This document shows positions 1 through 24,811 of a DNA stretch of 45,348 nucleotides, piece by piece. How positions within the stretch are numbered: position 1 is the stretch's first letter; each line of letters begins with the position of its first letter. The notes beneath the pieces were generated by a model that worked only from the letters and a program-made list of their open reading frames with translations, was not told the origin of the DNA and ran no database searches. Made by a program: the position numbers and the translations under genes. The DNA is from Elusimicrobiota bacterium (GTDB taxonomy: Bacteria; Elusimicrobiota; Elusimicrobia; Elusimicrobiales; UBA9959), in contig JACQWV010000006.1 of the NCBI GenBank assembly GCA_016209085.1, positions 1 to 45,348 of the forward strand, read 5' to 3'.

Positions 1-453
1 CTGCAGAAGTTCAATTGTTTCAGCGTAATTGTGGTACGCGGAATCAGCGGGAGGAAAATCTTTCACATACTCGGAAAGCGGTATCTGGGAGGTGATGACG
101 TATCCTTTCTGTTTGAGTATGTTTACCGTGTTGATGTGCCCAATGCCGCCGACTTCATCGGCGCTGATTTCAATTATGTCAAAACCTGTTTCAAGAATCT
201 TGGTCCTTTCTTTTTTGTCGGCGGCTTTTACAGTCAGGTAATATCTTTTGTCGCCGGCAGGCCGGATAATGCCGGGATTCCCGTCCTCGGAAACCGGAGG
301 CAGGGAACGCATTTCATTTGCCTGTTCCTGAGCCACAGCTTTCAAAAGCTGGTCAAAAGAAATTTTTTCCTCGTCTGGAACGCTGGTAATCTGGGAAAAC
401 GCAAAATAACCCGAAAACACCAGCAAAAATAATAACACTATTGTTTTTTTCAT
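1..453 (-). CDS. M14-type zinc carboxypeptidase, N-terminal part (cut by window edge)
   Basis: The first 151 codons are visible. They start at ATG 453 behind a GGAGG ribosome site and run off the window. Residues 1-20 form a Sec signal peptide (MKKTIVLLFLLVFSGYFAFS). Residues about 55-125 look like the propeptide that precedes secreted M14 carboxypeptidases, and the last visible residues (YHNYAETIELLQ) resemble the start of the M14 catalytic domain. No zinc ligands fall within the window, so the family call rests on this N-terminal pattern and is tentative. The start overlaps the stop of the upstream DUF6714 gene (ATGA), which indicates translational coupling in one operon with the toxin-like gene. 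Residues around 33-40 (SFDQLLKAV) repeat a segment of that toxin-like protein. Confidence 0.55.
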   Translation of the reverse strand, partial: MKKTIVLLFLLVFSGYFAFSQITSVPDEEKISFDQLLKAVAQEQANEMRSLPPVSEDGNPGIIRPAGDKRYYLTVKAADKKERTKILETGFDIIEISADEVGGIGHINTVNILKQKGYVITSQIPLSEYVKDFPPADSAYHNYAETIELLQ

Positions 454-1079
454 TTTTCCTCCCGACAATGATTTGCGGATTTTCTCTTATTCTTTAAATA
501 TTCTAACCTCTTCAACCAATAATTATCTAATGCTTCCTTAATTTCACTTATCATCATATTAGTTTTTCCGTCATAATCTTTTCTATCCAAATGATAATAT
601 AAATATTCGATTATTGCTTCAACTTCTTGCAGGGTAAATAAGGAAAATCTATATGAACCATAATCCCACCATGTGGCTTCTCCATATATTGTAGGCTCAT
701 CATCAGACCATTTGTAAGAACCTTTCTCATCGTCAATTAATTTACAACCGATTCTTTGGTTTTTATTAGAATTTGTAAAATAATTACATAGATGAAAAAT
801 TACATCTACTTCTGGTAACTTGTCATCAATATGTGCAATAAGATACGCAGGCAAATAGAAACGAAAAGCTGCTTCAGAAAAAAAACTTAATGCAGATCCT
901 CCGGGCTCGTTCAAAAATTTAGCGTCTAATTTTGTCCAATCATGCTTCCCTTCAAACCCTTTTACCTCATCACGATTATATGCCCGATTACTATTACAAA
1001 GATCATAATCGGCAACATATTGGTTGTTTTTGAAGGCACTAAAAATTTTTTCTTTCAAATATGTCTTTTTTTCATCCAT
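450..1079 (-). CDS. DUF6714 family protein, possible immunity protein of the upstream toxin-like gene
   Basis: A 209-residue cytosolic protein without signal peptide. The core SFFSEAAFRFYLPAYLIAHI matches what I recall of DUF6714, a family of unknown function, and resembles FFLSPAAFHYYLPLYMIFSL in the second DUF6714 gene of this window (16294-16809). It starts 2 bp after the stop of the secreted toxin-like gene and its stop overlaps the start of the M14 gene, so the three form an operon. A small cytosolic gene directly behind a secreted, Cys-rich, toxin-like gene is the usual place of an immunity gene. That role is inference from position only. The stretch looks AT-rich compared with the neighbouring metabolic genes. 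Confidence 0.7.
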   Translation of the reverse strand: MDEKKTYLKEKIFSAFKNNQYVADYDLCNSNRAYNRDEVKGFEGKHDWTKLDAKFLNEPGGSALSFFSEAAFRFYLPAYLIAHIDDKLPEVDVIFHLCNYFTNSNKNQRIGCKLIDDEKGSYKWSDDEPTIYGEATWWDYGSYRFSLFTLQEVEAIIEYLYYHLDRKDYDGKTNMMISEIKEALDNYWLKRLEYLKNKRKSANHCREEK

Positions 1080-1081
1080 AA

Positions 1082-2164
1082 CTAATTAAATTTTATGAAT
1101 CTGAAAGCAGGGTCCGGTATTGGATCACACTTTTCTTTGATTATGTCATTACAATTTTTTTGGCCTATTAATTCATTTTTTATAGCCTCTTTATGACCAG
1201 GATCATCTCCACCATGACAACGATTATTAATAGCAACCCTTGCATTTATACAAGCCTGGAATTTTGCAACATTATTTCGCAAGGTATCGCAATCTTGTGC
1301 CTTACTACAACTTCTTTGCGATTCAGGAGTTTTACATGCAGTCTTCACTGCTTGTTTGAGTTGCTCATATTCTTCTTTTGTGCAGGTATAATCTTTTAAA
1401 AATTCACGGGCTTTTTCTATAAACAGATCAATTTTGCTTGACCAACTCCGTATTTTTTCTACAAAAGAAAACATTGTATTATCCAACTCTTTCTTGCGAA
1501 TATTAAAGCTTTCAACTTTTTGGTTATGGATATTAACTCTCTTGGTTAAATCAGCCCTCCATGCTTCAATGCGGTTAGACCAGTTAGTGCAATACTGATT
1601 GACGGGTTGACCCGCGCATTGCTGATTATAAGCTACTACTTCTGCGTTAAATTTCCCTATTTCCTGCTTTAAAGCTTCTCTCTCGTTTTGAAGCAAAACG
1701 AGTTCTTGATATAAACCGCTGTCTCTGGAATTAAGAGCATACGCCTCGTTAAGCAATGTGCCTTTAATGGCCTCTATGGAATTCCATTCCACTAATAATT
1801 GCTGGGCAACGGGATGTTCATGTTGCTGAAGCTGGGGAGGATATTTTAAAGCATATTTATAGTGCGAATTATCTAAAACCCAGGGAGGATATGGACCATG
1901 AAAATATCCGGGTCCGCCTTTTGAAAATTCTTTTTGTAAAGATAATGGCGAATTTTTAAAACTTATAGTTTTTATATCCGCATCATCAAGTTCCAAAATC
2001 AGAGCATGAAATTGTCCCTTAGTATTTTTTAAATCCTTCTGCTCCACAGCTTTCAAAAGCTGGTCAAAAGAGAGGCTGTTTTCTTTTAAACTTTTATCCT
2101 CTGCTTTAATCAAACCGACTGAAAAAAAGAACAAAACAGCCGCTAACAAAGTTTTCTTCTTCAT
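1082..2164 (-). CDS. Secreted coiled-coil protein with Cys-rich C-terminal toxin-like domain (Ntox16-like motif)
   Basis: A 360-residue protein with a Sec signal peptide (residues 1-21, ending near LIKA). It shares the segment SFDQLLKAV (near 33-41) with the downstream M14 precursor. Residues about 155-250 form a long helical segment with spaced cysteines (QQCAG, QYCTNW). The C-terminal ~90 residues are Cys-rich and contain RCHGGDDPGHKEAI followed by NCNDIIKEKC. This is close to the C-x-GGD-x-GH motif I remember from the Novel toxin 16 domain of polymorphic toxins, a predicted RNase. I cannot check the match by profile search. With a small DUF6714 gene directly downstream, the pair has the shape of an effector with immunity protein. 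An alternative is a harmless Cys-rich envelope protein. The start has an AAGG site about 10 bases upstream. Confidence 0.55.
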   Translation of the reverse strand: MKKKTLLAAVLFFFSVGLIKAEDKSLKENSLSFDQLLKAVEQKDLKNTKGQFHALILELDDADIKTISFKNSPLSLQKEFSKGGPGYFHGPYPPWVLDNSHYKYALKYPPQLQQHEHPVAQQLLVEWNSIEAIKGTLLNEAYALNSRDSGLYQELVLLQNEREALKQEIGKFNAEVVAYNQQCAGQPVNQYCTNWSNRIEAWRADLTKRVNIHNQKVESFNIRKKELDNTMFSFVEKIRSWSSKIDLFIEKAREFLKDYTCTKEEYEQLKQAVKTACKTPESQRSCSKAQDCDTLRNNVAKFQACINARVAINNRCHGGDDPGHKEAIKNELIGQKNCNDIIKEKCDPIPDPAFRFIKFN

Positions 2165-16216: not shown

Positions 16217-16293
16217 TTACTTAACCCACTTTATGAAGTCGTCCCATTTGGACTCCTGCGCCCATTTCAGCTCGTCATAGGCGGCGCTGTAAT
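16217..16293 (-). repeat. 77-bp duplicate of the clostripain gene 3' end
   Basis: It is identical to 17955-18031 except for one base (76/77) and includes the last 24 codons and the stop TAA of the clostripain-like gene. It follows the stop of the DUF6714 gene and precedes a terminator. The two copies bracket 1.66 kb holding an orphan tip, a CPBP gene and the DUF6714 gene, as if that block were inserted at the gene's 3' end. Confidence 0.9.
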
Positions 16294-16809
16294 TTATACG
16301 CCAAGAGAACGCTTTCTGTTAATAAAGGATTGAACATTCTCAATCGCTTCATTTAATGGATACGTAGGAAGCCAATCATTGCCATGTCTTTGCTTAATAA
16401 ATTTTAAAAAAGCTATTATAATTTGGAGCTGTCTGTCTGTCATCACTTCTAACCGTTTTCGCACATATTCAGACAACTCTATGCTGGCAGGTCGCGTTGC
16501 CATGATTATTTCCCCTGTAAACAGGTTGGCATGCTCATAGTCGGTTAGAGAAAAAATCATATAAAGAGGTAGATAATAGTGAAAGGCTGCAGGAGACAGA
16601 AAGAACAAATCACTATTAAACTTTGGATTAAGAAATTGCGAAGGTTTTTCTTTCCAATCCTGCCACTTAATGCCTTTAAAACACTCGGCCGTATCCATAG
16701 ATTCTGGGTCAATACCATCCACCAAATCATCATCCCCCGGATATGGCACATCAGCAAATGCTAATTCTATTTCCTTTTTCAGATTTATCGTTTCAGAATC
16801 CAGTGTCAA
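16294..16809 (-). CDS. DUF6714 family protein, second copy (possible orphan immunity gene)
   Basis: 171 residues from TTG 16809, chosen because AAGGAGG lies four bases upstream; the frame itself is open to 16836 and beyond. Conserved DUF6714 features are FADVPYPGDDDLVDG near the start and FFLSPAAFHYYLPLYMIFSL (near 85-104). The stop joins directly onto the duplicated clostripain tail. No toxin-like gene stands upstream, unlike the copy at 450-1079, so if the family is an immunity family this copy is an orphan. Upstream neighbours are a palindromic repeat and a CPBP gene on the same strand. The function is unknown. Confidence 0.75.
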   Translation of the reverse strand: MTLDSETINLKKEIELAFADVPYPGDDDLVDGIDPESMDTAECFKGIKWQDWKEKPSQFLNPKFNSDLFFLSPAAFHYYLPLYMIFSLTDYEHANLFTGEIIMATRPASIELSEYVRKRLEVMTDRQLQIIIAFLKFIKQRHGNDWLPTYPLNEAIENVQSFINRKRSLGV

Positions 16810-16913
16810 ATTGCCTCCTTGGAATAAAAGGCGCATCCGTTTTTAGGCAGTGTTGTTGTATAAAATTCCAACATTTTTTCGCGGCTGTCGCAGCATTCAC
16901 TGAACGCCGTTTC

Positions 16914-17018: not shown

Positions 17019-17606
17019 TCACATAATAATCTTAGCCACAACGTTCTCAAACAGTAGTAAGGAAATATTATAAAGATAATGAATTATAATTGGAGGCAAC
17101 AAACACCTTGTATATACACGAGATATTCCAAGTATAACTCCCATAATTATTAGAGGAAATATTTTATATGGATATATATGAATTACACTAAACAAAAGAG
17201 TTGTGAATATTATAGCCAGCAAACTATTATATTTATTCCAAAGATATTTAAGCATAAAACCCCTGAAAACGATCTCTTCAGAAACTACTCCTAAAAACAT
17301 TAAAAAACTTGCGATAATTAGACCATGAAAACCAGCATTCTTAAGTTCAATAAATCCTAATAAAAATTTTGACGATGTTTCTCGGCTTAGAAACTTGTTT
17401 AAAATTTCAGGATAGATTATAAATAAAATTTTAAGAGAAAAGAAGAGAATCGCTAAACCAATAATTCCTATAAAACAATCTTTTATTATATCTGCCAAAT
17501 CTTTCTTAAATCCAAGAATATCGTTCCAATTATAACTAATTTTTTTACAATACAAATCTACAAGAACAAAAGTCAGAAAAAAACCAGACAAAACCGAAAA
17601 TAACAA
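17019..17606 (-). CDS. CPBP-family intramembrane protein (Abi/bacteriocin-immunity type), start unclear
   Basis: 195 residues from TTG 17606, a hydrophobic protein with several helices. CPBP motifs are present: SEEIVFRGFMLKYLWN (EExxxR) and VIHIYPYK (His motif), plus a C-terminal HYLYN. The family contains Rce1-like proteases and bacteriocin self-immunity proteins. The frame stays open and hydrophobic up to 17684 without any ATG, GTG or TTG before 17606 and with no ribosome site, so the 5' end may be lost or the start may be unusual. It is very AT-rich (18 G/C in 17101-17160, against 32 in 18361-18420), suggesting foreign origin. It lies downstream of orphan tip 3 and a terminator. Confidence 0.75.
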   Translation of the reverse strand: MLFSVLSGFFLTFVLVDLYCKKISYNWNDILGFKKDLADIIKDCFIGIIGLAILFFSLKILFIIYPEILNKFLSRETSSKFLLGFIELKNAGFHGLIIASFLMFLGVVSEEIVFRGFMLKYLWNKYNSLLAIIFTTLLFSVIHIYPYKIFPLIIMGVILGISRVYTRCLLPPIIIHYLYNISLLLFENVVAKIIM

Positions 17607-17748: not shown

Positions 17749-17953
17749 CTACTTTTTATTCCTTGTGGTAACCACATCGTAAGAATAATCCCCTTCTTGA
17801 AAATTATCAACTTCTTCATGAGGACTATTCCACCATTCTGATATGGATTCTACCGTATTACCGACTGTTTCATTGCAATTCTCATCAGATAAACAGGAAG
17901 TTACAGCGCCAGCTAATCCTATTAATAATTCTCCAGCGCCTTTGTCATTTTCG
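17749..17953 (-). pseudogene. Orphan C-terminal tip 3 (no start codon)
   Basis: A frame of about 68 codons begins right after the clostripain stop, in another frame, and has no possible start except a GTG near its end. It reads SENDKGAGELLIGLAGAVTS, then an acidic part, and ends GDYSYDVVTTRNKK. The order Lys-Gly near the junction, a small hydrophobic Gly/Ala segment with two Cys, an acidic linker and Tyr-Asp-Val near the end parallels tips 1 and 2 (23846-24120, 22618-22850). A terminator follows, then a CPBP gene. It looks like a silent tip that lost its carrier. Readthrough from the clostripain gene would need a frameshift at a non-slippery site. Confidence 0.6.
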
Positions 17954-17954
17954 C

Positions 17955-18031
17955 TTACTTAACCCACTTTATGAAGTCGTCCCATTTGGATTCCTGCGCC
18001 CATTTCAGCTCGTCATAGGCGGCGCTGTAAT
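17955..18031 (-). repeat. 77-bp direct repeat, resident copy in the clostripain gene
   Basis: It matches 16217-16293 in 76 of 77 positions and contains the C-terminal codons ...AYDELKWAQESKWDDFIKWV-K and the stop. The match begins exactly at the stop codon and ends inside the gene. Confidence 0.9.
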
Positions 18032-19223
18032 AGGAAGGCAGGTAAACAGCGAGACCGTACGCATCAGCGTATCCTGAGCCGTATGCCCTGTTATGGAGTA
18101 TGACCTCGCCTTTCATAAAACTCATGATCTCTTTTCCTTTGCTGACGACAACGCTGTTTTTGGAAGTTTCTGTCACAAGTTTCACAAAGTGATAGAGGTC
18201 TTTGTTGCTGGAATAATAAAAGTCCTGCGCCTTTGATCTCGCGTCTTTTACCACCTGAAGCTCTCCGGCTTTCATTATCTCGGAAGTCCAGTTATCAAGG
18301 AGGGCTGTTAGATTGGCCAGACTTTTTGCGTTTATTGAAGACTGGGTCGCGCCCTGGCTTATGCTCTGGTAGTGGTCCGTGTATGAATCAACAGTCGCTT
18401 TGGAAAGCTCCGCTGCCGTCATTGTCGGCTTGGCGGCAAGAGGTCCGAGAAAAGTGTTGTAAGTATACCCGTCAGCCGGTTCGGTCTCTTCGGATGCGAC
18501 GACGTAGTCGGTATAATCCTTGATTTCGTAAGCGACTTCCATCATCTGCATCAGGCACGCGTCCATTGAGAAAATGTCAATTTTCCCAGTTTCCTTCAGA
18601 GTCATGAGAAGCTGGGGAGTGGTTAAGTGATGGCCTGTTTCGTCATCGTAGGAGATTCCCTTGGCCGCTTCAAATTTCTCGTCCTTGTTCCAGCCGCTGC
18701 CGTGATTCCAGACCACGAGCATGTATTTCTTGGCCGGAAATTTTTCCATGGCCCATTTCGTAAATCCGACCAGATATTTCCAGTCGCCCATGTCGCTTTT
18801 GGCTATTTCCATGAGAACCGGAGAAGTGACTTTGGACGCGTTATTGTCTTTCTGGATAAGATACCTTTTTGAACCCGTCCAGTCCCCGTCGGACGAATCG
18901 TATCCCTTGATTCTGCCTAACTCCGCCACTACGTTGATTTTGTCGGTTGAACCTATCATTTCCATCTCATTAACGTCTTTCAAACCGTACTTCTCAAGAT
19001 TATTCTTTGCATTGACGAAAACCATTACAGTCCATTCTTTAAGGGCCTTTGTCTGCTCAACAGGCGCGAGAACATCTGAAGAATTGCCTGTTTTCTCATT
19101 TATCTGTTCCATGATTTTTGCAAGACTGCCATTCTGGTCAAAAGTCACGTTGACTTCGGAAGCGTAAGAATAGCCGCATGCAAACACGGCGCATACAACC
19201 AGACCAAGTATTGTTTTTCGCAT
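17955..19223 (-). CDS. Secreted clostripain-like cysteine peptidase (family C11)
   Basis: 422 residues with signal peptide (1-21, cleavage near YSYA). The C11 domain begins near WTVMVFVNAKNNLE (about 64). The catalytic His is in VVWNHGSGW (near 174) and the catalytic Cys in SMDACLMQMMEVAYE (near 222), with the usual spacing of about 48 residues. C11 enzymes cleave after basic residues and often mature themselves or other secreted proteins; fragipain activates a Bacteroides toxin. A consensus promoter (19263-19291) and GGAGG ribosome site precede the gene. Its last 77 bp are repeated at 16217-16293. The carrier protein at 23846-24811 has Arg-Arg just before its tip, a plausible but unproven substrate. 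Confidence 0.9.
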   Translation of the reverse strand: MRKTILGLVVCAVFACGYSYASEVNVTFDQNGSLAKIMEQINEKTGNSSDVLAPVEQTKALKEWTVMVFVNAKNNLEKYGLKDVNEMEMIGSTDKINVVAELGRIKGYDSSDGDWTGSKRYLIQKDNNASKVTSPVLMEIAKSDMGDWKYLVGFTKWAMEKFPAKKYMLVVWNHGSGWNKDEKFEAAKGISYDDETGHHLTTPQLLMTLKETGKIDIFSMDACLMQMMEVAYEIKDYTDYVVASEETEPADGYTYNTFLGPLAAKPTMTAAELSKATVDSYTDHYQSISQGATQSSINAKSLANLTALLDNWTSEIMKAGELQVVKDARSKAQDFYYSSNKDLYHFVKLVTETSKNSVVVSKGKEIMSFMKGEVILHNRAYGSGYADAYGLAVYLPSYYSAAYDELKWAQESKWDDFIKWVK

Positions 19224-21117: not shown

Positions 21118-21837
21118 TCAAATTAAAAGCGCAAAATGAATGACTCCCCAGAAATTAGCAAGCGAATGGAATATAATATTTGACGGAAGTCTTTTATGGC
21201 GTTCATAAAGATAATAAGAAAACAAACTCCATAAAAAGATAGGAAAAAAATTTACATAATGAAGGGCTGCAAAAAGAATACAAGAAAGGAAAAATGCTTT
21301 TAAAAAAGACATTTTATGTCTGAAACTTACATATAAAATTCTCTTAAAAAATATTTCCTCAGCCAATGGTATGAAAAGACATACGACATAAATTACAAAT
21401 ACAATTTCAAACGGATTGAAAATATTATTTATTATCTTGGGCGAGTAACCTCCGGGTATTATATTAGGAGGCTTGAAACCCAGGAAATCCAGTAATATAG
21501 AAACAAGAAAATACGCGGCAAAATATTTTAAACCCAGGATTGAATCATATCTTATATTTTTATTCCAATCATCCAATGCGTCCTTAAAGTTACAACCGAT
21601 TTTCCGCAAGGTTTTTAACGAGATTAAAATGACAATGCACGGATATAATCCATATAAGATTTGTTTGGCAAATTCCTGATGATTCTTAAATAGAATCAAT
21701 AAAAACACGGTTAACAGCAGAGTCACTAAATAAATAAACACAAGCCATGTAAGGCTGTCCTCTAAACTTGTGATTTTCTTGGTCTTAAAACCATCGCGTG
21801 GAAATTGAAAAAATTTCAACAGATATACATCTTTCAT
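21118..21837 (-). CDS. CPBP-family intramembrane protein (CPBP3), possible immunity protein
   Basis: 239 residues from ATG 21837, 25 bp after the stop of the preceding CPBP gene; the frame can extend to 21909, overlapping that gene. It is a polytopic hydrophobic protein with the CPBP motif AEEIFFKRILYVSFRHK and a His motif ALHYVNF. It ends with a FYYLYERHKRL-like block that closely parallels CYYLYERFQRL in CPBP1 (22985-23683), so the two are paralogues. It is the last gene of the orphan tip 2 cassette. A CPBP protein behind a secreted tip suggests self-immunity; protease activity is possible as well. Confidence 0.75.
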   Translation of the reverse strand: MKDVYLLKFFQFPRDGFKTKKITSLEDSLTWLVFIYLVTLLLTVFLLILFKNHQEFAKQILYGLYPCIVILISLKTLRKIGCNFKDALDDWNKNIRYDSILGLKYFAAYFLVSILLDFLGFKPPNIIPGGYSPKIINNIFNPFEIVFVIYVVCLFIPLAEEIFFKRILYVSFRHKMSFLKAFFLSCILFAALHYVNFFPIFLWSLFSYYLYERHKRLPSNIIFHSLANFWGVIHFALLI

Positions 21838-21862
21838 TGCTTTTGGCGGAACCGCCGGGTTT

Positions 21863-22549
21863 TCAAGATATAAATTCGCCAAAATATGATAGTGACAAGT
21901 TATAGGCAAAATGTGTCAATACTGGAACCATAAGCCCTTTGGATTTCACATAAAGCATGGTAAATATTAAACCCAAGGCAAAGGGTATAGGGACAATATA
22001 CGGATGAAGATGAGGAAGAGCGAATAAAGCCGAATTCCATATTAAAGCCTTTTTAAAGGAGTATTCCCGCCTTAAATAATTAAATATAAGCCCTCGGAAT
22101 GCCAACTCTTCAATAATGACAAGAAGCAGTATTCCGCCCCAAAGCGCCATTATGCCGGAGAATTCCCCTGTTTTTCCCCATTCAGACAGGAATTGCACAT
22201 AACTTGTATTTTTCCAAGAGGCTACTCTATCATATTCCGCAGGCAGAAGCATTTTGAAAGCGGCAGCGTACAGGCGAAGCCATAACAGACAGGCCAGTGT
22301 GCCGGAGAATAGAAGAAGAACGTTTTTTTTAAGGTCGGTTTTTTGGGGCAATTTAATGCCTATTTCGCTATAACTCATTCCAAACTTTTTTAAAAATTTA
22401 ATAATCACAGCGAACCAGATAATAAAAAGTGATATTACAACCAAAACCACCCTGACTTTTACCGGGATGCTTTCGGCGAACCATATTGCCAAAGCTGGCG
22501 CCGATGCTAATGCCAGGAAAAATAAAAAAATAAAGACATTAATTATCAT
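21863..22549 (-). CDS. CPBP-family intramembrane protein (CPBP2), possible immunity protein
   Basis: 228 residues with about seven hydrophobic helices. The CPBP motifs are IIEELAFRGLIFNYLRR (EExxxR), FALPHLHPYIVP and a C-terminal THFAYN. It is more distant from CPBP1 and CPBP3 than these are from each other. It starts 69 bp after orphan tip 2. A seven-codon leader frame with its own ribosome site overlaps the start (ATGA), which suggests translational coupling because no good ribosome site precedes the gene itself. Confidence 0.75.
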   Translation of the reverse strand: MIINVFIFLFFLALASAPALAIWFAESIPVKVRVVLVVISLFIIWFAVIIKFLKKFGMSYSEIGIKLPQKTDLKKNVLLLFSGTLACLLWLRLYAAAFKMLLPAEYDRVASWKNTSYVQFLSEWGKTGEFSGIMALWGGILLLVIIEELAFRGLIFNYLRREYSFKKALIWNSALFALPHLHPYIVPIPFALGLIFTMLYVKSKGLMVPVLTHFAYNLSLSYFGEFIS

Positions 22550-22566
22550 AATGTTATTTGAGACAT
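22546..22566 (-). CDS. Six-residue leader ORF coupled to CPBP2
   Basis: ATG 22566 reads MSQITL and stops at 22548-22546. GGAGGG (22580-22575) lies eight bases upstream. Its stop overlaps the CPBP2 start codon (ATGA). It could deliver ribosomes to CPBP2. Confidence 0.4.
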   Translation of the reverse strand: MSQITL

Positions 22567-22617
22567 TCAGCTTTCCCTCCTGTCCTGTTTTGGCGGGACA
22601 GAAAGTGGTCTCCGGGC

Positions 22618-22974
22618 TTATTTTACTTTTTTGTACACCTCATAGTTGGGGTTTGCACCGTCCATATTGTTGTGATAGGTGTCATTCTCATCATCATGAA
22701 GATTGTTTATGTAATTTACGACATCTTCCCGACACTCGTGGCTAACAATACATGCGGCAACTATACCCCACGCTGCATCTGCCAATCCAAATTTTGTCTG
22801 ATTATTCAAATTTTTTTCCTTAACTCCTTTTGCAACATCAGTCCTGCGCGCGAGTTCCTGGGTGTCCCACATCATGTCCCGTGTTTTCCAGCCTATGTCG
22901 CGACTGTAGCGGGATATGTCCATTGCAGTCCATTGTGCGTCATGACCTATCAATTTAGGGTCTATGCGCCGGAC
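22618..22974 (-). pseudogene. Orphan cassette: truncated carrier end plus alternative tip 2
   Basis: The first 131 bp (22974-22844) exactly repeat the end of the carrier gene constant region (24247-24117), in frame, ending at ELARRT. A new tip of about 72 residues follows: DVAKGVKEK, then FGLADAAWGIVAACIVSHEC, an acidic linker and the end NPNYEVYKKVK. No signal peptide and no ATG at the 5' end are present; only TTG or an internal ATG could start it. The copy begins 10 bp after the CPBP1 stop. CPBP2 and CPBP3 follow. It is best read as a silent replacement cassette that can be joined to the carrier by recombination in the repeat. Confidence 0.75.
22844..22974 (-). repeat. 131-bp perfect direct repeat, orphan copy
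   Basis: It is identical at all 131 positions to 24117-24247. The sequences diverge immediately on both sides: CPBP1 end on one side, tip 2 on the other. The perfect identity indicates a recent duplication or ongoing conversion. Confidence 0.92.
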
Positions 22975-22984
22975 TTGCTTCCTT

Positions 22985-23683
22985 TTAACTCAATCTGTAA
23001 ATCGAAATTGATAAAATTACTAAATTATTAAAAGAATGAAGAAATATAGTCAAAGAAAGTCTTTGGAATCTTTCATATAGGTAATAGCAGACAAAACTTG
23101 TAATAAAAGTCAACAACAATGCGCCGGGGTGAAATAAAGCGAAAATCAATGAGCCAAAAACAATAGATCTTTTAAAATTATACTGATGTCTTAAAGCCAC
23201 ATATAACAACCTCCTAAAAAAAATCTCCTCTACTATCGGAGTTAAAATTCCTAATGAGAAAAACCATAGAAACAATCCCAGATAATTTGTTTTGGAAATA
23301 AGTTCATTGAGGGCGTTTGTCATTTCTACTGAATGATGTTTCAAGAGCGTTCCAGTCAAATTAAAGTGTACCATTAGAAGTTCTAAAGGCACAAGAATAA
23401 TGCTCACTAAAAAACATAATGCAAAATCCCTATTAAAGCTTTTTTTCCACATATTCCAGGTGTTTTTAAAATCTACGCCAAACTTTTTAAATATCAATAT
23501 AAAAGTGAATAAAAAGATTAAACTATTCAGAATGGAAGCTATAGGTATGGGCTCACCATGCATTACCACATTACTGATAATTATATTGAGGATCAGATAC
23601 CCAACTATAAGCAAAACCCATTGATTTAAGGAGATAGTTCGTTTGCTCTCAAAATTTGTTTGCAAGAAATCAATTTTAAGCAT
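22985..23683 (-). CDS. CPBP-family intramembrane protein (CPBP1), predicted immunity partner of tip 1
   Basis: 232 residues, strongly hydrophobic, with about seven helices. Motifs: VEEIFFRRLLYVALRHQ, ALFHPGALLL and the block CYYLYERFQRLSLTIFLHS. It is a paralogue of CPBP3 (21118-21837). It lies directly downstream of the carrier gene that carries tip 1, separated by a terminator hairpin (23703-23731) whose U-run is only about 15 bases before its start. Its stop is 10 bp from the repeat that opens the orphan cassette. AT-rich. An immunity role is inferred from family knowledge and position. Confidence 0.78.
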   Translation of the reverse strand: MLKIDFLQTNFESKRTISLNQWVLLIVGYLILNIIISNVVMHGEPIPIASILNSLIFLFTFILIFKKFGVDFKNTWNMWKKSFNRDFALCFLVSIILVPLELLMVHFNLTGTLLKHHSVEMTNALNELISKTNYLGLFLWFFSLGILTPIVEEIFFRRLLYVALRHQYNFKRSIVFGSLIFALFHPGALLLTFITSFVCYYLYERFQRLSLTIFLHSFNNLVILSISIYRLS

Positions 23684-23702
23684 ATTTATGTTTTACATAA
23701 AA

Positions 23703-23731
23703 ATTCCCTGGTTATTATACTACCAGGGAAT
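23703..23731 (-). terminator. Terminator between carrier gene and CPBP1
   Basis: An 11-bp stem attccctggt(t)/(a)accagggaat with a short AT loop, followed on the minus strand by TTTT. CPBP1 starts just behind it, so readthrough or a separate start must supply CPBP1. Confidence 0.65.
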
Positions 23732-23845
23732 AAAACTTTTAAAATAAAATGAAGCAAAATTTCACATAAGAGCCTGGTAATAAATGACAGCTATTATGGG
23801 ACAATACCTTGGCTTAGATGTTTGTCTCAATGAACAAAAAATCTT

Positions 23846-24811
23846 TTATTCCTGTGTGCGTCTATATCTGTTCACGTCGTAATTTGAATCCCCGCCCTGG
23901 CCATTATAATAAGTGCTACCGGAACCACCGGCCGCACTGCTTGAGGGTTCATCTGTAGTATTTTCCGAATAATATTCATTCCATTCATCTACCACGCCTG
24001 TCCAAACTTGCCATATAGCTTGAACTAATGTATTAGCCGCTCCGGCATTGGCAGCTGGTGGTAGCGCATTTGTTGCCTGTTTTGAAATAGAATCTAATCC
24101 TTTATCCGGCTGGGTTCTGCGCGCGAGTTCCTGGGTGTCCCACATCATGTCCCGTGTTTTCCAGCCTATGTCGCGACTGTAGCGGGATATGTCCATTGCA
24201 GTCCATTGTGCGTCATGACCTATCAATTTAGGGTCTATGCGCCGGACAGTCCATTCAAGCCTCTGCGCCGCGTTCTGAACGTCAAACTGGAACCTGTTGT
24301 TTAAATCTCTCGCGTCCCATTCCATGTCCCTGGCAAGCTTGTTTAATTCTTCGGATTTCTGGGCAATATTCAGAAGATTTTTTATATCCATGGCTATGCG
24401 CTGGCTGTCGTTGTAATACCTGGACATATCCATTGACATTCTGCGCAAATCGCTGCTGAAAAAAGGACTGGACGTATTCTGCTGGGCTATCCTTGAGGCT
24501 TCTCTTTCAAGACGGTCTATGTCCATTCTGAGCCAGGTGGTGTCGCTGTCAAGACGCCAGAGGTCGTTCTTTACTCTCTGGAATTTGTAAATCACATCTT
24601 GCGGGACCTGGGGCTGAGGCTCAGGAGCGACAACAACCGGCTGTTGAGGCTCAACTACCGCAGGCTCCTGCGCCACAGGAGTCTCCCCTTCTTTAGGCAG
24701 GCTTATACTGAAATCCCCTGATTTCAAATCCTCAATTTTGCCAAAGTCTTTTGCGCAAACTAATGAAACCGCAAATATAACCGCTCCGATTCCAGATAGA
24801 ATTTTTTTCAT
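23846..24811 (-). CDS. Secreted helical carrier protein with exchangeable C-terminal tip 1
   Basis: 321 residues from ATG 24811, preceded by GGAGGG at seven bases. Signal peptide about 1-20 (ending near LVCA). A Pro/Gln/Val-rich linker (about 45-75) is followed by a helical region (about 80-235) with repeated D-hydrophobic-R units such as MSMDMSRYYNDSQRIAMD and MDISRYSRDIGW. Constant part ends ELARRT. The tip has an Ala/Pro-rich hydrophobic stretch (NALPPAANAGAANTLVQAIW), acidic and Gly/Ser parts and the end SNYDVNRYRRTQE. I know no family for the carrier. With CPBP1 downstream and a second tip cassette behind it, it has the layout of a secreted antagonistic effector or bacteriocin precursor. 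Activity is unproven. Confidence 0.7.
   Translation of the reverse strand: MKKILSGIGAVIFAVSLVCAKDFGKIEDLKSGDFSISLPKEGETPVAQEPAVVEPQQPVVVAPEPQPQVPQDVIYKFQRVKNDLWRLDSDTTWLRMDIDRLEREASRIAQQNTSSPFFSSDLRRMSMDMSRYYNDSQRIAMDIKNLLNIAQKSEELNKLARDMEWDARDLNNRFQFDVQNAAQRLEWTVRRIDPKLIGHDAQWTAMDISRYSRDIGWKTRDMMWDTQELARRTQPDKGLDSISKQATNALPPAANAGAANTLVQAIWQVWTGVVDEWNEYYSENTTDEPSSSAAGGSGSTYYNGQGGDSNYDVNRYRRTQE
24117..24247 (-). repeat. 131-bp perfect direct repeat, copy in the carrier gene
   Basis: It encodes the last part of the constant helical region, from VRRIDPKLIGH to ELARR. It is identical to 22844-22974, and the two copies lie 1273 bp apart in the same orientation. Recombination between them would delete tip 1 and CPBP1 and join tip 2 to the carrier. 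Confidence 0.92.

Follow-up and report, generated by a model that had tools for sequence, protein, structure and literature searches.

Polymorphic toxins follow a common general logic (PMC3482391), and the same logic appears to underlie the locus described here. It lies at positions 21118-24811 of a 45,348-nucleotide contig (JACQWV010000006.1; C135 in our numbering, and in its full length "the window") from an Elusimicrobiota bacterium whose genome (GCA_016209085.1) is a draft of 2.35 Mb in 140 contigs. The locus encodes a Sec-exported protein, carrier B, that ends in a short tip (tip 1), followed by a membrane protein of the CPBP family (CPBP1), a displaced duplicate of the carrier end that continues into another tip (tip 2), and two more CPBP proteins (CPBP2 and CPBP3). 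We consider it quite probable that it belongs to a polymorphic toxin-immunity system of one Elusimicrobiota family, in which membrane-acting tips would be blocked by CPBP proteins. In the following, "own C##" denotes contigs of the source genome, G### other genomes and L### loci that were compared.

The closest described systems are those of contact-dependent inhibition (CDI; CdiA-CT/CdiI) and Rhs with their orphan cassettes, where a variable C-terminal tip also has its immunity gene directly behind it and where displaced tip-immunity pairs also retain a piece of the constant region, with recombinational switching as a possibility (PMC4927057). The carriers found here are however small, Sec-exported and of several unrelated families, without Rhs or haemagglutinin repeats, and their tips are short and membrane-active-looking, with a CPBP membrane protein as predicted immunity factor. 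With its 321 amino acids (aa) carrier B does not correspond to the large haemagglutinin-repeat carrier CdiA; no search was aimed at CdiB. MafB of Neisseria and other polymorphic toxins (Zhang 2012) share the secreted N-terminus, the swapped C-terminus and the immunity gene, but tips and carriers of our system match no Pfam toxin family and the immunity family is a different one. In SitA/SitI of Myxococcus, polymorphic toxins are likewise exported by Sec and encoded next to their immunity gene (PMC5562445). SitA proteins, however, are lipoproteins with nuclease tips, whereas here the carriers are of other kinds, immunity would be conferred by CPBP proteins, and no lipobox was evident when the N-terminus of carrier B was inspected by eye.

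Class II bacteriocins are small peptides with a leader, for whose export an ABC transporter is used. In Gram-positive bacteria they can be accompanied by CPBP (Abi) self-immunity proteins, a membrane-active peptide thus being countered by CPBP protection, according to the account of Kjos 2010 given in PMC9298176. The peptide of our system would differ in being the tip of a Sec-exported carrier and in moving between carriers. Carrier B, as a 321-aa precursor with a Sec-type signal, shows no double-glycine leader, and no dedicated ABC exporter gene adjoins it. Myxosortase and other CPBP C-terminal sorting systems have the CPBP family in common with our locus but differ in their tripartite C-terminal signal (motif, transmembrane (TM) helix, basic end), which is absent here, and the cut-offs of their families were missed. 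Features shared with polymorphic toxins are a constant N-terminus with variable tips, a downstream cognate gene by position and by statistics, and orphan cassettes (window 22974-21118; own C33 2584-3803). In the literature searched (open papers, most subscription journals lying outside) we found no description of this combination of carrier, tips and CPBP proteins, and an earlier reading of the window from its letters alone (the sequence-only reading) had likewise named no described system of this kind.

Anatomy of the carrier B locus

All genes of the locus are encoded on the minus strand (Table 1), and coordinates and frames confirmed the gene order and the perfect in-frame repeat that the sequence-only reading had described. 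The exact repeat is the longest direct repeat of the window and extends to 134 bp at 99% identity (22841-22974 / 24114-24247); the sole other exact direct repeat of at least 40 bp in the window (16217-16293) is a second copy of the same kind. Both copies of the 131-bp repeat share the reading frame, and the orphan copy runs in frame into tip 2 (end at 22618). Signal peptide and proper start are indeed missing from the orphan: its frame opens directly after the CPBP1 stop codon, lacks an ATG, and offers a single internal TTG at 22953 as start-like codon. An AlphaFold model of the orphan alone was uninformative (mean predicted local distance difference test, pLDDT, 43.5). All three CPBP proteins match PF02517 with E values from 5e-14 to 6e-17. 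CPBP1 and CPBP2 contain the motifs EExxxR, FxxxH and HxxxN, and the translation of CPBP3, which is absent from the motif table, shows EEIFFKR and HSLAN. The frames of CPBP2 and CPBP3 share 47 nt.

Table 1. Positions of carriers, tips, CPBP genes and repeats in the window.
Feature	Position	Strand	Evidence or remark
Carrier B, whole open reading frame (321 aa)	23846..24811	-	ATG at 24811, stop at 23846-23848
Sec-type signal peptide of carrier B (MKKILSGIGAVIFAVSLVCA)	24749..24811	-	sequence inspection; homologues have N-terminus of same kind
Carrier B constant region, residues 1-235	24107..24811	-	homologues in 27 of 61 genomes searched
131-bp direct repeat, upstream copy, within carrier B	24117..24247	-	
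Natural C-terminus (TQP) of tipless homologues, position in carrier B	24107-24115	-	
Tip 1 (...AIWQVWTGVVDEWNEYYSEN...GSGSTYYNGQGGDSNYDVN...), with stop codon	23846..24106	-	tail also on other carriers
CPBP1, predicted immunity to tip 1	22985..23683	-	PF02517 E 1e-14; motifs intact
131-bp direct repeat, displaced copy of carrier B 3' end	22844..22974	-	begins 10 nt after CPBP1 stop codon
Orphan tip 2 (...AAWGIVAACIVSHECREDVVNYINNLHDDENDTYHNN...NPNYEVYKKVK), without own start	22618..22840	-	55-72% identity to tips elsewhere
CPBP2, predicted immunity to tip 2	21863..22549	-	PF02517 E 6e-17
CPBP3, extra immunity-like gene without tip	21118..21909	-	PF02517 E 5e-14
Clostripain-like carrier, natural stop present	17955..19223	-	relative of own C33 clostripain (PF03415); tipped paralogues in C33, G004, G021
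Tip 3, out of frame with carrier (silent)	17749..17958	-	
CPBP of tip 3 module	17019..17606	-	PF02517 E 1.5e-18; intact
DUF6714 protein within repeat-bounded tip 3 module	16294..16836	-	PF20461 E 1.2e-15
Displaced clostripain 3' end with natural stop (77 nt, 98.7%)	16217..16293	-	begins directly after DUF6714 stop codon

Pairing of tips and CPBP proteins

The pairing was studied at 89 loci fetched around PF02517 matches in other genomes together with the nine matches of the source genome; such matches occurred in 43 of the 59 genomes of the family. Here 41 pairs were found in which a protein with variable C-terminus, usually exported, ends just ahead of a CPBP gene. Their carriers are unrelated and comprise the four-helix protein (carrier B), clostripain (PF03415), subtilase (PF00082), small proteins with a signal peptide and an xDFDG motif, and others. 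With the last 70 residues taken as tip, which is a crude boundary, and with an automatically chosen upstream gene, which at least at one locus (L114) was not the short tip open reading frame (ORF), tip similarity correlated with CPBP similarity at r=0.67 across the 41 pairs, and at 0.57 in a partial Mantel test controlling for the carrier, compared to 0.23 for carrier against CPBP controlling for the tip. The correlation persisted at r=0.43 (p<=0.0002) when the two largest tip classes were left out, and the CPBP of the nearest tip relative had a median rank of 2 of 40. The same tip classes were found on different carriers, and one carrier also bears different tips. By these sequence similarities, tip class tracks CPBP class independently of the carrier.

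Tip 2 illustrates this relationship. Five copies were detected in three of the 295 genomes of the phylum. Flanking sequence is available for four of them, and each of these four is followed by a CPBP2-type gene; three sit on a small DFDG carrier. The orphan shows 55-72% identity over the tip to those of G004 (two), G025 and own C18, which sit on another carrier, and the nearest relatives of CPBP2 are the CPBPs behind other tip 2 copies (normalised similarity 0.61-0.65, compared to 0.30 for the next class). That other genera have tip 2 on a different carrier, again with CPBP2-type genes, bears out the idea of the sequence-only reading that a tip-swapping secreted protein is accompanied here by an orphan tip-immunity cassette with CPBP as partner. 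The tail of tip 1 recurs on other carriers in own C34, G070 and G081 and on a short ORF of G025, and the closest relative of CPBP3 is the CPBP of a tipped carrier B in G008. In general, the tips are about 60-90 residues long and consist of one amphipathic or moderately hydrophobic segment and a polar tail. Padloc and PHROGs searches gave nothing useful.

Several observations stand beside these pairs. A weak tip-tail match outside of the family (G136, E 7e-4) was discounted since no CPBP-like ORF was found in the fetched flanks. The tip 2 on own C18 (L157), the second of the source genome, sits on a small DFDG carrier at a contig end and is interrupted near its end by foreign sequence, which may be an insertion element. 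A CPBP2-type gene at the start of own C40 (L033, 1-860), 176 nt from the contig end, was initially read as orphan immunity but is possibly part of the interrupted own C18 gene, and the end of own C18 and the start of own C40 may be one interrupted locus; the gene was not used as evidence. In genus g4 (L055, L068, L077, L086, L104 and similar loci) a secreted protein (...FSVDFLVGNIYQQGG...) is followed by a CPBP (MEEKNPFEGIKTYD...). This pair probably has a different function, because both partners are conserved and not polymorphic, and was for this reason left out of the statistics. Eight further loci (L047, L050, L052, L059, L064, L076, L121, L123) have carriers in which an internal LPxGxG...hydrophobic...RKK stretch precedes a long variable tail, and a CPBP comes next. 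The stretch resembles a sorting motif, but is not C-terminal.

The pairing might also be expected if the CPBPs were dedicated C-terminal processing or sorting proteases such as myxosortase, MrtJ or MrtS, which would cut or anchor the tip of the protein encoded in front, the tips then serving as signals for sorting rather than as toxins. Substrates with C-terminal sorting signals are known for CPBP proteases (PMC11980579), the motifs are intact, each carrier has one CPBP directly behind it, and several tips have the tail G(S/A)GSTYHNGQGG in common. Nevertheless, we regard this explanation as unlikely. None of the 41 tips resembles tripartite signals in having a TM-like segment close to the C-terminus (the hydrophobic part is followed by 47 residues in the median), and the CPBPs that were tested all remained below the family cut-offs (at best 36 of 75 bits for MrtJ, 32 of 130 for MrtS and 22 of 100 for Mrt_core). 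The ancestral carrier end requires no CPBP, and sorting proteases would not be expected to form orphan cassettes with tips, to outlast their tips, or to be replaced by other membrane partners on the same N-terminal module.

Carrier B as acceptor of tips

Homologues of carrier B were detected in 27 of the 61 genomes searched (source genome included), all within one Elusimicrobiota family, the named relatives being metagenome-assembled genomes of Elusimicrobia or Elusimicrobiota. Nearly all homologues terminate in ...KTQP or a close variant and have no CPBP match behind them. Tip 1 begins immediately past TQP, and so does the tip of the G008 carrier B. Residues 71-232 were modelled as a confident four-helix bundle (pLDDT over 93), in agreement with the helical carrier proposed from sequence alone, and the tip was modelled as a low-confidence appendage. 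Carrier B had no match over cut-off in Pfam or NCBIfam, and a fold search against the PDB gave no significant match (best E 9.6e-3). Since the homologues end at TQP and the tip is a low-confidence appendage, the tip is best understood as something added to an exported protein that is otherwise plain. The sequence-only reading had regarded the carrier as a dedicated effector; the comparison of its homologues indicates that it is not, and that tips are grafted onto its natural end. The same reading had named a single conserved C-terminus without CPBP genes as evidence against itself. This is literally what the carrier family shows, yet the tip-swapping idea survives, because the tips appear to be additions at the natural end.

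Displaced carrier ends as probable insertion scars

Behind the immunity gene of seven modules the carrier 3' end is found again as a copy (58-134 bp); four of these modules belong to the source genome and the rest to three other genomes. The copies measure 134 bp for carrier B of the window (leading into tip 2), 77 bp for the window clostripain, 58 and 62 bp for two nested copies on own C33, 61 bp for the G008 carrier B (ending in ...ERKTQP), 58 bp for a G004 clostripain and 78 bp for a G026 subtilase, with the natural stop retained in the window clostripain, G008, G004 and G026. In four of the seven modules the copy overlaps the CPBP stop codon or begins at most 11 nt from it. On own C33 (L032, 406-3990) a single clostripain gene continues into tip a and a CPBP, then into a displaced end with tip b and a CPBP, and finally into the natural gene end; a small deletion breaks the frame of the middle copy. 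The outer module was inserted in a gene that already bore a tip-CPBP module, and the order of events is therefore given.

From these comparisons the 131-bp repeat is best read as an insertion scar. The source genome is a 140-contig draft, and repeat and orphan could in principle be an assembly artefact, as the sequence-only reading had cautioned, or a one-off tandem duplication without function. We consider this very improbable, because displaced ends bounded by repeats occur six more times in the source genome and three others, in genes and with repeat lengths that differ, and because none of the 27 tipless carrier B genes has a displaced-end copy. No shared motif was evident when the junctions were compared by eye, and entry of modules by homologous plus illegitimate recombination is one possibility.

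In the mechanism that we propose, the short C-terminal tip would be the toxic part and would probably disturb the inner membrane of a related cell, while the CPBP encoded directly behind it would reside in the inner membrane of the producer and protect against that tip only. Tip and immunity gene would form one module. Genes for secreted proteins that are unrelated to one another would receive new modules at their 3' ends, their products becoming carriers; the former carrier end, either bare or together with a former tip and its immunity gene, would be pushed downstream as a silent cassette bounded by a direct repeat. Recombination across the repeat could then delete the newer module and return the older tip in frame. 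We further lean towards a wider formulation, in which tip-immunity modules would be units that can be inserted and that take over the natural 3' ends of genes for unrelated exported proteins, including protease-family ones. Behind the immunity gene each insertion would leave a 58-134-bp end copy, often with stop codon, and a clean excision would then give back the original gene. Within a single Elusimicrobiota family such units would have been joined with a widespread signal-peptide and "xDFDG" module, which would yield a large set of membrane-acting tips with CPBP and several new families of small membrane proteins as immunity factors.

Several points weigh against a toxin-immunity function. 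The active-site motifs are retained in nearly all CPBP members, which fits a protease acting on something, and elsewhere CPBP proteins have been tied to processing or receptor roles besides immunity (PMC9298176). The CPBPs closest to CPBP1 are not those of the nearest relatives of tip 1, the libraries searched gave no match of any tip to a known toxin family, and no delivery system was identified. Among the 295 genomes of the phylum we found no fusion of tip 2 to carrier B, which the sequence-only reading had suggested to look for, and no strain in the switched state. If the proposal holds true, polymorphic toxin systems would reach into a phylum that is little studied and for the most part uncultured, and would come to include tips and immunity proteins that escape current family libraries. 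There would then also be a large natural set of cognate pairs for testing the role of CPBP proteins, which is disputed in bacteria (immunity, processing or receptor), and the repeat-bounded insertions make it testable how C-terminal toxin modules move between unrelated carrier genes.

A second module and the loss of tips

The second repeat-bounded module of the window lies behind the clostripain-like carrier (Table 1). Its tip 3 is disconnected from the carrier by the natural stop and the shifted frame, yet its CPBP is intact. Tip 3 and its CPBP share one best-match locus (G004:C155), and the DUF6714 protein of the module is probably a second immunity gene. Elsewhere in the window (450-2164) a protein that is exported by Sec and carries Ntox16 as its C-terminal domain (PF15523, E 1.9e-15) is followed by another DUF6714 protein (PF20461); by their domains the two form a classical polymorphic toxin-immunity pair. 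The position of DUF6714 behind Ntox16 and inside the tip 3 module suggests that it is an immunity family.

A further state is represented by the subtilase of G020, where the carrier stops at its natural end and what is left of a tip end is accompanied by an intact CPBP. Survival of a CPBP beyond its tip would be expected of an immunity gene, but not of a dedicated processing enzyme. Along with the correspondence of tip and CPBP classes and the second, nested orphan of the source genome, it is in keeping with the central idea of the sequence-only reading. It also bears on a scheme in which the tip is toxic and the CPBP frees it from the carrier during export, immunity being encoded elsewhere, comparable to the PrsW pathway proposed by Zhang 2012. 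Such a release function would agree with the intact active-site motifs. It appears quite unlikely to us, as CPBPs persist without a tip, their similarity tracks tip class more than carrier, and the carrier B modules and own C33 have no other consistently adjacent gene that could supply immunity.

The xDFDG module and other membrane partners

A hidden Markov model of the small carriers yielded over a hundred matches in 39 of the 59 family genomes, many of them via the N-terminal ~64 residues only, and almost nothing outside of the family (2 of 31 matching genomes). Several small carriers have cysteine-rich or VGDxVS-type tips, which are followed by membrane proteins of other families instead of CPBP. 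One partner family has 56-70 aa (L143, L159, L163, L165, L167), a second one is likewise small (L141, L168), and a third has 168-185 aa (L146, L149, L161, L176). Within these three families the tips are mostly related, and the three new-looking membrane-protein families are candidate immunity families on the basis of these sequences. CPBP as partner, as put forward in the sequence-only reading, thus holds for the tips of the carrier B locus but not as the sole type; other tips on the same N-terminal module have other membrane partners, and therefore the partner varies with the tip. It is highly unlikely in our view that the tips are pheromone-like peptide signals freed by the neighbouring CPBP, with polymorphism reflecting signalling specificity. 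CPBP/CAAX proteases can take part in the processing of quorum-sensing peptides (SilX, PMC9298176), and the modules are indeed short, polymorphic and paired, but they travel without receptor or regulator, and cysteine-rich tips are paired with small membrane proteins of other families.

The signal peptide and xDFDG N-terminal module (L127-L176) is common to over a hundred otherwise different proteins of the family and is possibly a family-specific export tag. The clostripain and subtilase carriers have a similar mature start (V/I-x-F-D).

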